Positions 50,099 through 54,277 of a stretch of 64,000 bases of DNA are shown one piece after another (position 1 is the first letter of the stretch; the number at the start of each line of letters is the position of its first letter). This DNA is from Acidimicrobiia bacterium (GTDB lineage Bacteria; Actinomycetota; Acidimicrobiia; Spongiisociales; JAHEDJ01), in contig DATIPS010000028.1 of assembly GCA_035471805.1 (NCBI GenBank), positions 1 through 64,000 on the forward strand, read 5' to 3'. A model generated the notes under the pieces. It was not told where the DNA came from and did not search any database. It was given only the letters and a program-made list of their open reading frames with translations. The position numbers were made by a program, and so were the translations under genes.

Positions 50099-50683
50099 AT
50101 GGCAGAGGCCGGATCCGAAGTCCAGCAGGAAGCTATTGCCAAGGCGGTCAGGGCGATTCTCGAAGCAGTGGGTGAGGACGTCAACCGGGAAGGCCTCGTG
50201 GACACCCCGGAACGAGTCGCCCGGATGTATGCCGAGGTGTTCGGCGGGTTGCGGGTCGACCCCGGCAGCGTGATCAGCACCGTCTTCAGCGACGAGAGCC
50301 ACGATGAGATGGTTTTGGTCAAGGACATTGCCTTCTATTCGATGTGCGAACACCACCTGGTGCCCTTTCACGGAAAGGCTCATGTCGCCTACTTGCCGAA
50401 AGGTCGTCTGACCGGGCTCTCCAAGCTGGCGCGTCTGGTCGAAGCTTTCGCCCGCCGGCCGCAGCTTCAGGAGCGCCTGACCACGCAGATAGCCGACACG
50501 CTCATGGAAGGGTTGAAGCCGCATGGAGCCCTTGTGGTCGTAGAGGCCGAGCACCTTTGCATGAGCATGCGTGGCGTTAACAAACCCGCATCGATAACCG
50601 TCACGTCGGCAGTCCGCGGCGCTTTCTGCGACCTGGATGCGACCCGGGCTGAAGCCTTTTCGCTGATCTACGGCGGTCGATGA
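50099..50683 (+). CDS. folE: GTP cyclohydrolase I
   Basis: 194 aa from ATG at 50099 (GAGGAG upstream). Zinc and active-site residues in [18 protein letters not shown] and [10 protein letters not shown], with [13 protein letters not shown]. First step from GTP to dihydroneopterin triphosphate in folate synthesis. ATGA overlap with folP. Confidence 0.95.
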
Positions 50684-51543
50684 CTCTCGTGGACTGGCAG
50701 TTGCGAACCAGGGCTCTGAGCAATGACGATCACACGCTCGTGATGGGAGTCGTCAACGTCACCCCGGACTCCTTCTCGGACGGAGGCCGGTTCTTCGACC
50801 AGGCGGAGGCGGTCGCCCATGGGCGTCGGCTGGCCGCGGCAGGGGCCGACCTCGTCGACGTCGGGGGAGAGTCGACGAGGCCCGGGGCGCCTCCCGTATC
50901 TGCGGAAGAGGAAGCTCGGAGGGTGGTGCCGGTAGTGCGGGCGCTTGCAGCAGACGGCATCGTGGTCTCTGTCGACACCACGAAAGCTTGCGTCGCCGAG
51001 GAATCCTTGTCGGCAGGTGGAGAGATAATCAATGATGTCTCTGCCCTGTCGGATCCGGCGATGGCCGCGTTGATCGCCGACCGGGGCGCCGGGGTGGTGC
51101 TCATGCACATGCAGGGCACGCCGGCCACGATGCAGGCCGAGCCTCACTACGACGATGTGACCGCGGAAGTTCTGGCCGCCCTGCTGGAGAGCGCCGCCCT
51201 GGCCGAATCGTCGGGTATCGGCCGGGAGCGCATCTGCCTCGACCCGGGCATTGGTTTCGGGAAGTCGATCGAGCACAACCTGAGGTTGCTCCACGACCTC
51301 GAGGCCTTCACGTCGACCTCGTATCCGGTGATTCTGGGAACATCGCGCAAGTCGTTTCTAGGTGCGCTGGCCGGATTGCCGGACCCTCTGGACAGGGACG
51401 CGGCAACGGCCGGTACGACTGCCCTGGCCGTGGCCGCCGGAGTATTCTGCGTCCGGGTTCATGATGTTCCCGGGAACCTCCAATCTGCCCGGGTTGCCGA
51501 CGCTATCGTGCGATCGAGGAACTTCGATGAGGTCGGTGGATGA
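50680..51543 (+). CDS. folP: Dihydropteroate synthase
   Basis: 287 aa. [42 protein letters not shown] and the C-terminal VRVHDV. Joins p-aminobenzoate to the pterin pyrophosphate; target of sulfonamides. Overlaps the next gene by ATGA. Confidence 0.95.
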
Positions 51544-52031
51544 CGGGTCTCAAACCGAGAGAGTTTGTGTGGGTTATCGCCGGTCGGCTGGCGGTGTGTG
51601 AACGCATCGGCGGCTACGGCTTTCAGCATCGTCGCGTTCGCCGCGAAGAGGAGATCGCCTGGCTCCGAAGAGAGGCAAAGATCACATCGATCGTCTCGCT
51701 CTTGCCTGGAAACCAGAATGTCTCCGCCTACGAGGACGCCGGCTTCAAAGTACTCCATTGCCCGTTCGGTCCGGAGGATGAGAACGGCAGCCTCATGCCG
51801 TTCTTCTCCACCCTCGATGAGGCGCTGAAGGACAAGAAGTCGGTTGTGTTGGTCCACCGGGACACAATCGACGAAGGGATCGGCGGACTCCTTGCCGGGT
51901 ATCTCGTGCATGCCGGCTACCTGGACGACCCGATCATCGCCTCCGCAGTGATTCAGGAGATCCTGGGCAAGCCGCTCGGACCGAAAGCCAGGGCGATGAT
52001 CCGGGTACCGGAACGCTTCACCCGGGATTGA
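51540..52031 (+). CDS. Dual-specificity-phosphatase-like protein lacking the catalytic Cys
   Basis: 163 aa, coupled to folP (ATGA) and 1 base before folB. The fold resembles DSP/PTP-like proteins: REEEIAWLRREAKITSIVSLL, HCPFGPEDENG, then VVLVHRDTIDEGIGGLLAGYL where active enzymes have HCxxGxxR. The Cys and the terminal Arg of that loop are absent (HRDTIDEG). It is therefore probably a pseudophosphatase, perhaps a binding or regulatory protein for the folate enzymes. No signal peptide. Confidence 0.65.
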   Translation: MTGLKPREFVWVIAGRLAVCERIGGYGFQHRRVRREEEIAWLRREAKITSIVSLLPGNQNVSAYEDAGFKVLHCPFGPEDENGSLMPFFSTLDEALKDKKSVVLVHRDTIDEGIGGLLAGYLVHAGYLDDPIIASAVIQEILGKPLGPKARAMIRVPERFTRD

Positions 52032-52032
52032 T

Positions 52033-52392
52033 GTGACCGATTGGATTCGACTGCACGGCATTGAGGTATTCGCTCATCACGGTGTGCTGAGCGAGGAGCA
52101 GCTGCGCGGGCAGGTATTCGTGATAGATGTCGATGTGGCAATCGATCTGTCGGAGGCTGCCGATTCGGATGATCTTTCGACCACCGTCCACTACGGCGAC
52201 CTCGCAGTGGCCATACGCGACAGGGTCGCCAACGAACGCTGGGATCTCATCGAGCGGGTGGCCGGGCGGGTAGCGGATCTGGTTCTCGAGAACGAGCGAG
52301 TGATGGGGGTCGATGTCACGGTGCACAAGCCTTCTGCCCCTATCGATGTCCCCTTCGCGGACGTCTCAACGACGATCAGCCGGTCCCGATGA
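52033..52392 (+). CDS. folB: Dihydroneopterin aldolase
   Basis: 119 aa from GTG at 52033. LHGIEVFAHHGVLSEEQLRGQ, TVHYGDLAVAI, LIERVAGRVADLVL and the catalytic Lys in VTVHKPSAPI. Cleaves dihydroneopterin to hydroxymethyl-dihydropterin and glycolaldehyde. ATGA overlap with folK. Confidence 0.94.
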   Translation: MTDWIRLHGIEVFAHHGVLSEEQLRGQVFVIDVDVAIDLSEAADSDDLSTTVHYGDLAVAIRDRVANERWDLIERVAGRVADLVLENERVMGVDVTVHKPSAPIDVPFADVSTTISRSR

Positions 52393-53351
52393 CCAGAGCG
52401 GCCGTCGCGCTGGGATCGAACCTGGGCGATCGGCGCGCCAACCTCGAGTTCGCCGTCAGGGGCCTGGCGTCCTGCGGGGAAGTGGTGGGCGTCTCAGGCC
52501 TGTACGAGACGGCTCCCGTGGGTGGACCCGAGCAGGGCCCTTATCTGAACGCAGTTGCCATCGTGGACACGATGCTGCCCGCGGAGCAGCTGCTGGCCGG
52601 GCTGCACGACATCGAACGCCGGCGAGGCAGGACCCGCACGATCCATTGGGGCCCGAGAACCCTCGATCTCGACCTGCTCCTGTACGGCCGGGAGAGCCAT
52701 GCAACCGACGATTGTGTGGTTCCGCACCCGCGGATGCATGAGCGGCGCTTTGTCGTCGAGCCCCTGCTGAACGTCTGGCCGGAAGCAGCATTGCCCGACG
52801 GGACCAGGGTTTCGACCTTGAAAGCAAGTGTTGCCGACCAGGATCTCACCGACCTCGGCGGCTGGTGGCCGCCCCGGCCGGCGGCGCAGGGCTTTGTCGA
52901 AAGGGGTGGTTGGTGGGTGGCCGCCCAGTTCTTGCTGATAGGGCTGGTCGTTGTTGCTCTGGGCACGGGCGGCCCGGTTCTCCCGGGTGGATCTGCCCTG
53001 CGCGTCGGTGGTGCCGTTGTCGCCCTCGCCGGCCTCGCTCTCGGGATGCTCGGGCTCCGGCATCTCGGCGATCGGCTCACACCGTTCCCGGAGCCGCTCG
53101 CCGGTGGTGAGATCATCCGTGCCGGCGTCTACGCGAAGGCTCGGCATCCGATATACGGCGGAACCGTTCTGGGGCTCGCCGGTATGGCGCTCTTCGGGGC
53201 TTCCCTCTACGGCTTGCTGGCGGCGATGTTCGCCGGCGTCTTCTTCTGGATGAAAGCCGGACGGGAAGAGATGAGACTGCTGGATCGTTTCCCGCATTAC
53301 GCCGAGTATCGGGAGAGAACCCGGGCGCGGCTGGTCCCGTGGGTTCTGTGA
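52389..53351 (+). CDS. folK: HPPK (FolK) fused to an isoprenylcysteine-methyltransferase-like membrane domain
   Basis: 320 aa. Residues 1-155 are a complete 6-hydroxymethyl-dihydropterin pyrophosphokinase: ALGSNLGDRRANLE, VSGLYETAPVGG, HWGPRTLDLDLLLYG, PHPRMHERRFVVEPL. Residues about 170-320 are a second domain with three to four hydrophobic segments, AGVYAKARHPIYGG (246-258) and EEMRLLDRFPHYAEYRERTR (293-312), the SAM-binding signatures of ICMT/PEMT-type membrane methyltransferases. One uninterrupted frame with no internal start near the junction. FolK normally ends near residue 160-170, so this is a fusion that would place the kinase at the membrane. Confidence 0.85.
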   Translation: MTRAAVALGSNLGDRRANLEFAVRGLASCGEVVGVSGLYETAPVGGPEQGPYLNAVAIVDTMLPAEQLLAGLHDIERRRGRTRTIHWGPRTLDLDLLLYGRESHATDDCVVPHPRMHERRFVVEPLLNVWPEAALPDGTRVSTLKASVADQDLTDLGGWWPPRPAAQGFVERGGWWVAAQFLLIGLVVVALGTGGPVLPGGSALRVGGAVVALAGLALGMLGLRHLGDRLTPFPEPLAGGEIIRAGVYAKARHPIYGGTVLGLAGMALFGASLYGLLAAMFAGVFFWMKAGREEMRLLDRFPHYAEYRERTRARLVPWVL

Positions 53352-53449: not shown

Positions 53450-54277
53450 ATGCCGATGGACAGACCACTCCGCATCGTCATTGTCGGGCCGGGGCGTGCC
53501 GGAATGTCGGTTGGGCTCGCAGCACGGCGGGCCGGACACGAGATCGTCGGCGTGTTGGGCCGGTCGAACGTCGCGGCCCGGGCGGCCACCCTGGGTGCTC
53601 CGGCACTCGACTGGGACGCTCCTCTTCCCGACTGCGATCTCGTCGTCGTGGCCGTACGTGACGACGCGATCCGGCCGGTCGCCGAGCGGCTCGTCCCGGT
53701 TGCAGCCAGTTCCTCAGCCGCCGTGCATCTCTCAGGACTCACCTCCGTCGATGCCCTCAGCGCCCTCGGGTCTGCCGGGCTCGACATCGGGGGTTTTCAC
53801 CCGCTGCAGACGATGCCGAACCCTCAAGACGGCGCCGCAGCCCTGGCGGGTGCCGCCGTCGGGATCACTGCCGATTCGCCGCTCGAGGCGAGACTGGAGG
53901 ATCTGGCTATCAGCATCGGGGCGCGTCCTTTCAAGCTCGAAGACGGCCGGCGCCCTCTATATCACGCCGCCGCCGCCTGCGCGGCCAACTACGTGCTGAC
54001 TGCGCTTGCGCTGGCTGAAGAACTGTTCGAAGCCGCCGGAGTGCCGTTTGGGCTCGCACGGCCCCTGGTCTCCGAGGTCGTCGCCAACGCATTCGATGTG
54101 GGGCCGCGGGATGCTCTGACGGGCCCTATTGCCAGAGGTGACCTGGGTACCGTGTCGGCGCAGATCGGGGCCGTGGCAGAGGTCGATCCCGACCTGGCAG
54201 CCGATTTCAAGGCGTTCGGACGCGCAACTGCCAGGCTGGCCGGCGCAGACGCGGCGATGCACGAGATGCTTCGATGA
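53450..54277 (+). CDS. Rossmann-fold oxidoreductase-like protein, DUF2520 family
   Basis: 275 aa (ATG 53450, or 53456). N-terminal NAD(P)-type fold IVIVGPGRAGMSVGLAARRAGH, then GGFHPLQTMPNPQDGAAAL and a helical C-terminal domain (YHAAAACAANYVLTALALAEEL). Related to ketopantoate reductase and 6-phosphogluconate dehydrogenase. DUF2520 genes often precede panC, as here with an ATGA overlap, so it may supply pantoate, but this is unproven. Confidence 0.82.
   Translation: MPMDRPLRIVIVGPGRAGMSVGLAARRAGHEIVGVLGRSNVAARAATLGAPALDWDAPLPDCDLVVVAVRDDAIRPVAERLVPVAASSSAAVHLSGLTSVDALSALGSAGLDIGGFHPLQTMPNPQDGAAALAGAAVGITADSPLEARLEDLAISIGARPFKLEDGRRPLYHAAAACAANYVLTALALAEELFEAAGVPFGLARPLVSEVVANAFDVGPRDALTGPIARGDLGTVSAQIGAVAEVDPDLAADFKAFGRATARLAGADAAMHEMLR

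Follow-up and report, generated by a model that had tools for sequence, protein, structure and literature searches.

The window analyzed here, a 64,000-nucleotide stretch of contig DATIPS010000028.1 from an Acidimicrobiia bacterium (GCA_035471805.1), carries an operon-like run of genes in the order hpt, ftsH, folE, folP, orf163, folB, folK::ICMT, DUF2520, panC, and lysS. The folK::ICMT gene (52389..53351, stop codon included) encodes a protein of 320 amino acids in which a FolK (HPPK) domain is joined to a membrane methyltransferase-like domain; it is present in one copy in the window's own genome and, like every window feature described below, lies on the forward strand. Its ATG start overlaps the stop codon of folB (52033..52392; Pfam FolB, E=1.7e-34) in the tetranucleotide ATGA. 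Farther upstream are folP (50680..51543), in an order conserved in relatives, and orf163 (51540..52031), a conserved gene of the folate operon, while the gene directly downstream encodes a DUF2520/Rossmann protein (53450..54277) that is itself fused to FolK in genome G007.

The N-terminal half of the fusion protein (52389..52856, residues 1 to 156) is the complete HPPK domain that an earlier note on this DNA had proposed. Residues 6 to 130 match the Pfam HPPK profile at E=1.9e-37 (128.6 bits, cut-off 25.7), and the NCBIfam model TIGR01498 (folK) scores 135.7 bits against a cut-off of 54.1. The FolK residues N54, R90, D93, D95, H113, R119, and F121, which correspond to N55, R92, D95, D97, H115, R121, and F123 of Escherichia coli HPPK, are all present and are invariant or nearly so among 29 aligned fusions. 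In a structure search, the AlphaFold2 model of the whole protein (pLDDT 86.8) aligns with E. coli HPPK structures at a TM score of 0.89 by target length. The protein thus shares the whole HPPK domain, all of the catalytic residues, and the fold with stand-alone FolK/HPPK (EC 2.7.6.3; E. coli HPPK), but differs from it in adding a C-terminal linker and a membrane domain. Because the top 50 matches of the full-length structure search were all HPPK, we modeled and searched the C-terminal domain by itself.

That domain (52905..53348, residues 173 to 320) is of the ICMT/PEMT type and corresponds to the whole of a stand-alone protein (~155 amino acids) found in sister families. Residues 208 to 298 match the Pfam PEMT profile (E=7.3e-7, 30 to 31.6 bits against a cut-off of 25); the Pfam ICMT profile gives 19.2 to 21.3 bits and does not reach its cut-off of 24, and the NCBIfam model for protein-S-isoprenylcysteine O-methyltransferase (NF040696) gives 39.5 bits, below its equivalog cut-off of 160. 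The AlphaFold model of the domain alone (pLDDT 89.9, pTM 0.84) contains four long hydrophobic helices, and its best match in the PDB by Foldseek is Ma-ICMT (4a2n; TM 0.76, probability 1.00), which phmmer also recovers with the fused domain at E=1.4e-4; the match to eukaryotic ICMT (5v7p) has a TM score of 0.65. AlphaFold2 secondary structure places predicted transmembrane (TM) helices at 52908..52964 (TM helix 1, residues 174 to 192, also indicated by hydropathy in relatives), 52989..53075 (TM helix 2, residues 201 to 229), and 53148..53195 (TM helix 3, residues 254 to 269). They are followed by a predicted helix 4 (53205..53288, residues 273 to 300), which carries K289, E293, and E294 at its cytosolic end.

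The earlier note had called this domain ICMT/PEMT-like and had singled out the motif GVYAKARHPIYGG and a distal Glu/Tyr/Arg block; profile match, predicted fold, and conservation all uphold the assignment, and both elements are present as described. The motif occupies residues 246 to 258 of the fusion protein and includes the predicted S-adenosylmethionine (SAM)-site signature R252-H253-P254-x-Y256 (53142..53156), in which R, H, P, and Y are invariant, while the C-terminal block Y304...Y307...R314..P317 (53298..53348), predicted to be cytosolic, is invariant or nearly so. Across 38 fused and 30 stand-alone domains, the GVYAKARHPIYGG motif together with K289, E293, E294, Y304, Y307, and R314 is invariant or nearly so, and R252, H253, P254, Y256, K289, E293, E294, Y304, and Y307 never vary except where a sequence is truncated. 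For RhlM, a member of the ICMT family in bacteria that methylates an amphiphile, the motif His and a Glu are reported to contact SAM, and models of Ma-ICMT likewise place the His in contact with it (PMC11069360); we infer that the His of RHPxY and a Glu of the EE pair are their equivalents in the fusion. The fusion shares the fold, the RHPxY motif, the EE pair, and the YxxY...R block with Ma-ICMT (4a2n), Tribolium ICMT (5v7p, 5vg9), and RhlM (PMC11069360). It differs from them, however, in having four predicted helices rather than more, an N-terminal FolK, and scores under both the Pfam ICMT and the NCBIfam isoprenylcysteine methyltransferase cut-offs.

The same fold is found in the delta-14 sterol reductase 4quv (TM 0.57) and the steroid 5-alpha-reductases (7c83, 0.61) in the Foldseek search, and the Steroid_dh profile matches 2 of 33 relatives, so that the second half might possess the fold but not the chemistry of a methyltransferase and act as a reductase-like or other enzyme of the steroid 5-alpha-reductase/ERG24 superfamily. 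We consider this very unlikely: each of the 33 aligned relatives, fused and stand-alone, is recognized by the PEMT and ICMT profiles, with far better scores; Ma-ICMT is the top match in both structure and sequence; and the RHPxY and EE residues correspond to the SAM site. A weaker second PEMT-like match elsewhere in the window's genome (G000:C15:34461-34694; 23.8 bits, below the cut-off) indicates that the fused domain is not the sole member of its superfamily there.

The two domains are connected by a linker (52857..52904, residues 157 to 172) whose length and sequence vary among fusions. In three comparisons, dN/dS was 0.10 to 0.28 for the FolK half and 0.19 to 0.24 for the ICMT half, with the linker above either domain; both halves are under purifying selection. 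No ATG occurs within the 27 codons before TM helix 1 in any of the 29 aligned fusions. The nearby alternative starts in the window gene are TTG135, TTG144, and GTG177, the last of which lies inside TM helix 1 and is a GTG codon in only 13 of the 29. With no ATG before that helix and so few fusions sharing GTG177, there is no conserved internal start, and we reject separate translation of the second half as a conserved feature of these aligned genes. Lys and Arg are absent from the loops predicted to be periplasmic and present in the linker, loop 2, and the tail, a distribution from which FolK and the SAM site would both be expected to face the cytosol.

The fusion is genuine and conserved. It occurs in frame in 35 of the 138 genomes of the window's order, a group of largely uncultured actinobacteria, in families f1, f2, f6, and f8, and nearly always sits in the folate operon after folB. 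Of the 35, 33 are full-length matches; the other two are G052, whose junction is interrupted by an NN gap, and G053, in which a contig end cuts the gene. The apparent frame break in G052 (L122) might have been taken for an unfused intermediate, a candidate we discarded because the break is the assembly gap itself and the sister genome G053 is fused. That the window comes from a 70-contig draft genome lends some color to an artifact in which a lost stop codon or frameshift merged two neighboring genes, the base error near position 52860 that the earlier note had named among the findings that would refute its claim. The same in-frame fusion, however, recurs in 34 further genomes from the order, at identities as low as 39 to 42%, and L002, a sequence taken from a separate record, has 89% identity along its full length. 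This recurrence excludes a base error, and we hold the probability of an artifact to be negligible.

The earlier note had also called for the two-domain architecture to be sought in Acidimicrobiia and in other actinobacteria, and among the matches listed for the class and in a sample of the phylum we found it only within one order. Among the matches listed from the 257 other genomes of the class (395 were searched), none is a fusion; those outside the order cover the FolK part only, with a few extending slightly beyond it. Only five genomes reach 1e-40 in a 396-genome sample of the phylum, all of them from the window's order, and no fusion was found outside it in that sample, although very divergent ones would escape such searches. 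An independent collection yielded six full-length relatives in actinobacterial or unassigned bacterial MAGs, five of them labeled actinobacterial.

Families f3, f5, and f7 encode the ICMT-like domain as stand-alone genes whose products are 35 to 49% identical to the window domain, begin where the fused domain begins (FTARGGWWVAAQ), and have the same conserved residues. They are nonetheless separate genes, located on other contigs than folK and with no linkage to folate genes. Judged from their sequences, the neighbors in one genus are clpB, mscL, and dnaJ/merR-type genes, and another genus has peptide transporters there; no functional hint is consistent across these two genera. At four loci of f7 genus g30 (L141, L144, L145, and L146), the gene adjoins an apparent mscL and diverges from clpB, and dnaJ and a MerR-type regulator lie close by. 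The earlier note had regarded separate genes combined with an internal start as evidence against a true fusion; separate, unlinked genes do exist, but the conserved internal start does not. A close stand-alone copy is found in 0 of 35 fusion genomes and in 50 of 103 others, a contrast for which we set the Fisher p-value aside, since the genomes share ancestry. Two changes are needed to account for the fused domains on the ICMT tree, where a single fused clade is not rejected (p-AU 0.37). Resolution is poor in the FolK tree, which likewise does not reject one (p-AU 0.36). Since both trees are short and weakly resolved, they allow one origin and do not demonstrate it; the most economical account would be one ancestral fusion that was lost again in parts of f8.

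When FolK was surveyed across the order (116 genes, four of them cut by contig ends), its C-terminus proved to be a fusion hotspot. Besides the 35 FolK proteins with the ICMT-like domain and 42 without a tail, 19 end in one hydrophobic C-terminal helix (f7), 11 carry a 4HBT_3-type acyl-CoA-thioesterase-like domain (f7), two an APH-type kinase domain (f5), two a uracil phosphoribosyltransferase (UPRT; f7), and one a DUF2520 domain. The enzyme tails were Pfam confirmed for one representative each, with the remaining members assigned by tblastn and frame, and the single-helix class is defined by hydropathy alone. All of the fused domains are in frame 0 with folK, and most occupy the slot between folK and DUF2520. 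The loci concerned are L128, L129, L137, L210, L241, L247, L249 to L252, and L254 for 4HBT_3; L119 and L120 for APH; L218 and L225 for UPRT; and L111 for DUF2520. For a single conserved enzyme, four further unrelated enzyme domains are an unusually wide range of partners. FolK-DUF2520 looks like a plain read-through fusion, given that DUF2520 is the regular downstream neighbor. The single-helix proteins (L124 to L127, L135, L136, L203, L205, L207, L208, L211, L212, L215, L220, L222, L237 to L239, and L253), whose last helix resembles a tail anchor, suggest that FolK may have become membrane attached on more than one occasion.

The membrane domain might mainly anchor FolK, and perhaps the surrounding folate enzymes, at the inner membrane, with methyl transfer secondary; the 19 sampled f7 proteins ending in a lone hydrophobic helix without an enzyme domain would then be a second, different attachment, and the predicted topology does keep FolK in the cytosol. 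The SAM-site residues, however, are equally conserved in fused and stand-alone domains, which is more than an anchor would need, and other relatives have soluble tails (thioesterase-like, APH, UPRT, or DUF2520) or none, so that membrane placement is not a general need. On balance, we think a mainly anchoring role unlikely.

A still less probable scenario couples the two activities metabolically, such that pterin, folate, or a related product is methylated, or folate status controls the methyltransferase through the shared chain. SAM and folate are both part of one-carbon metabolism, and families f1, f2, f6, and f8 have all kept the fusion inside a conserved folate operon. Against such coupling stand the unfused orthologues away from folate genes, the several other FolK tails and the tailless FolK common in the order, and the substrates of ICMT-type sites, which are membrane-borne amphiphiles (PMC11069360), whereas pterins are polar. 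The variety of FolK tails is our main ground for doubting a specific link to pterin methylation. The earlier note had offered a choice between tethering of pterin synthesis to the membrane and an added SAM-dependent step. Tethering is likely from the predicted topology; a SAM-dependent step in pterin synthesis finds no support, given the absence of linkage between unfused orthologues and folate genes and the five other kinds of FolK tail.

The explanation that we judge probable is an ancestral fusion that added a whole, probably active membrane methyltransferase to FolK, yielding two activities on one polypeptide that are most likely independent. In an ancestor of part of the order, a complete ICMT/PEMT-type gene would have been joined in frame behind folK, in the slot before DUF2520, and its product would be a single chain in which a short and variable linker connects cytosolic FolK to a membrane domain of four helices, both of whose termini lie inside. 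The FolK half would make 6-hydroxymethyl-dihydropterin diphosphate at the cytosolic surface of the membrane, while the cytosolic end of the membrane domain would bind SAM and methylate a likely amphiphilic substrate arriving through the membrane. The two activities would most likely be independent; in practice, joining them would ensure coexpression with the folate operon and would bring FolK to the membrane. The persistence of the fusion across such great divergence could nevertheless mean that coupling is useful, contrary to plain independence. A more speculative and rather improbable proposal is that FolK in this order is a hub whose C-terminus repeatedly gains membrane parts, be it a methyltransferase or a lone helix, because folate synthesis is organized at the inner membrane, and that the fused clade ties SAM-dependent lipid methylation to folate output.

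Fusions of FolK with FolB or FolP, its pathway neighbors, are well known, and where a broad comparative study of folate genes speaks of fusion, the fusions are within the pathway. Both HPPK-DHPS (FolK-FolP; 7mpy, 3mco, 4pzv, 2bmb) and FolB-FolK (2cg8) appear among the structural matches of the full-length model. The window protein resembles them in placing FolK inside a multidomain folate enzyme, but their partners are soluble and catalyze adjacent pathway steps, whereas its own partner comes from a different superfamily and is a membrane protein; nor is it of either type, as folP and folB are separate genes upstream. We found no description of a FolK-membrane methyltransferase fusion in the literature searched, and this is a new domain architecture built from known parts. 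As a partner for FolK, an integral membrane methyltransferase differs in kind from FolB or FolP. The sister genomes, in which the two domains occur apart or FolK bears a lone membrane helix or a soluble partner, provide natural controls and thus a good test of whether a fusion reflects functional coupling or simply a C-terminus that lies exposed beside an insertion site. Were the substrate folate linked, a function would be at hand for one of the many uncharacterized bacterial enzymes of the ICMT family.

Two further observations concern folate synthesis in the order more generally. Six genomes of genus g45 in family f8 (G105 to G110), at 94 to 96% completeness, lack an HPPK match, and their pterin-binding matches are weak (E ~1e-28 versus 1e-77 to 1e-93 for the folP of their neighbors), which suggests that this genus has lost de novo folate synthesis. 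Throughout the order, the interval from folP to folB (or folK) holds orf163, whose product of 163 amino acids has no Pfam match. The protein is tyrosine/dual-specificity phosphatase-like in sequence, but in 54 sequences its loop reads LxH(R/K)(D/E)xxDD and lacks the cysteine; it may carry out the poorly known dephosphorylation of dihydroneopterin triphosphate or act as a pseudo-phosphatase regulator.
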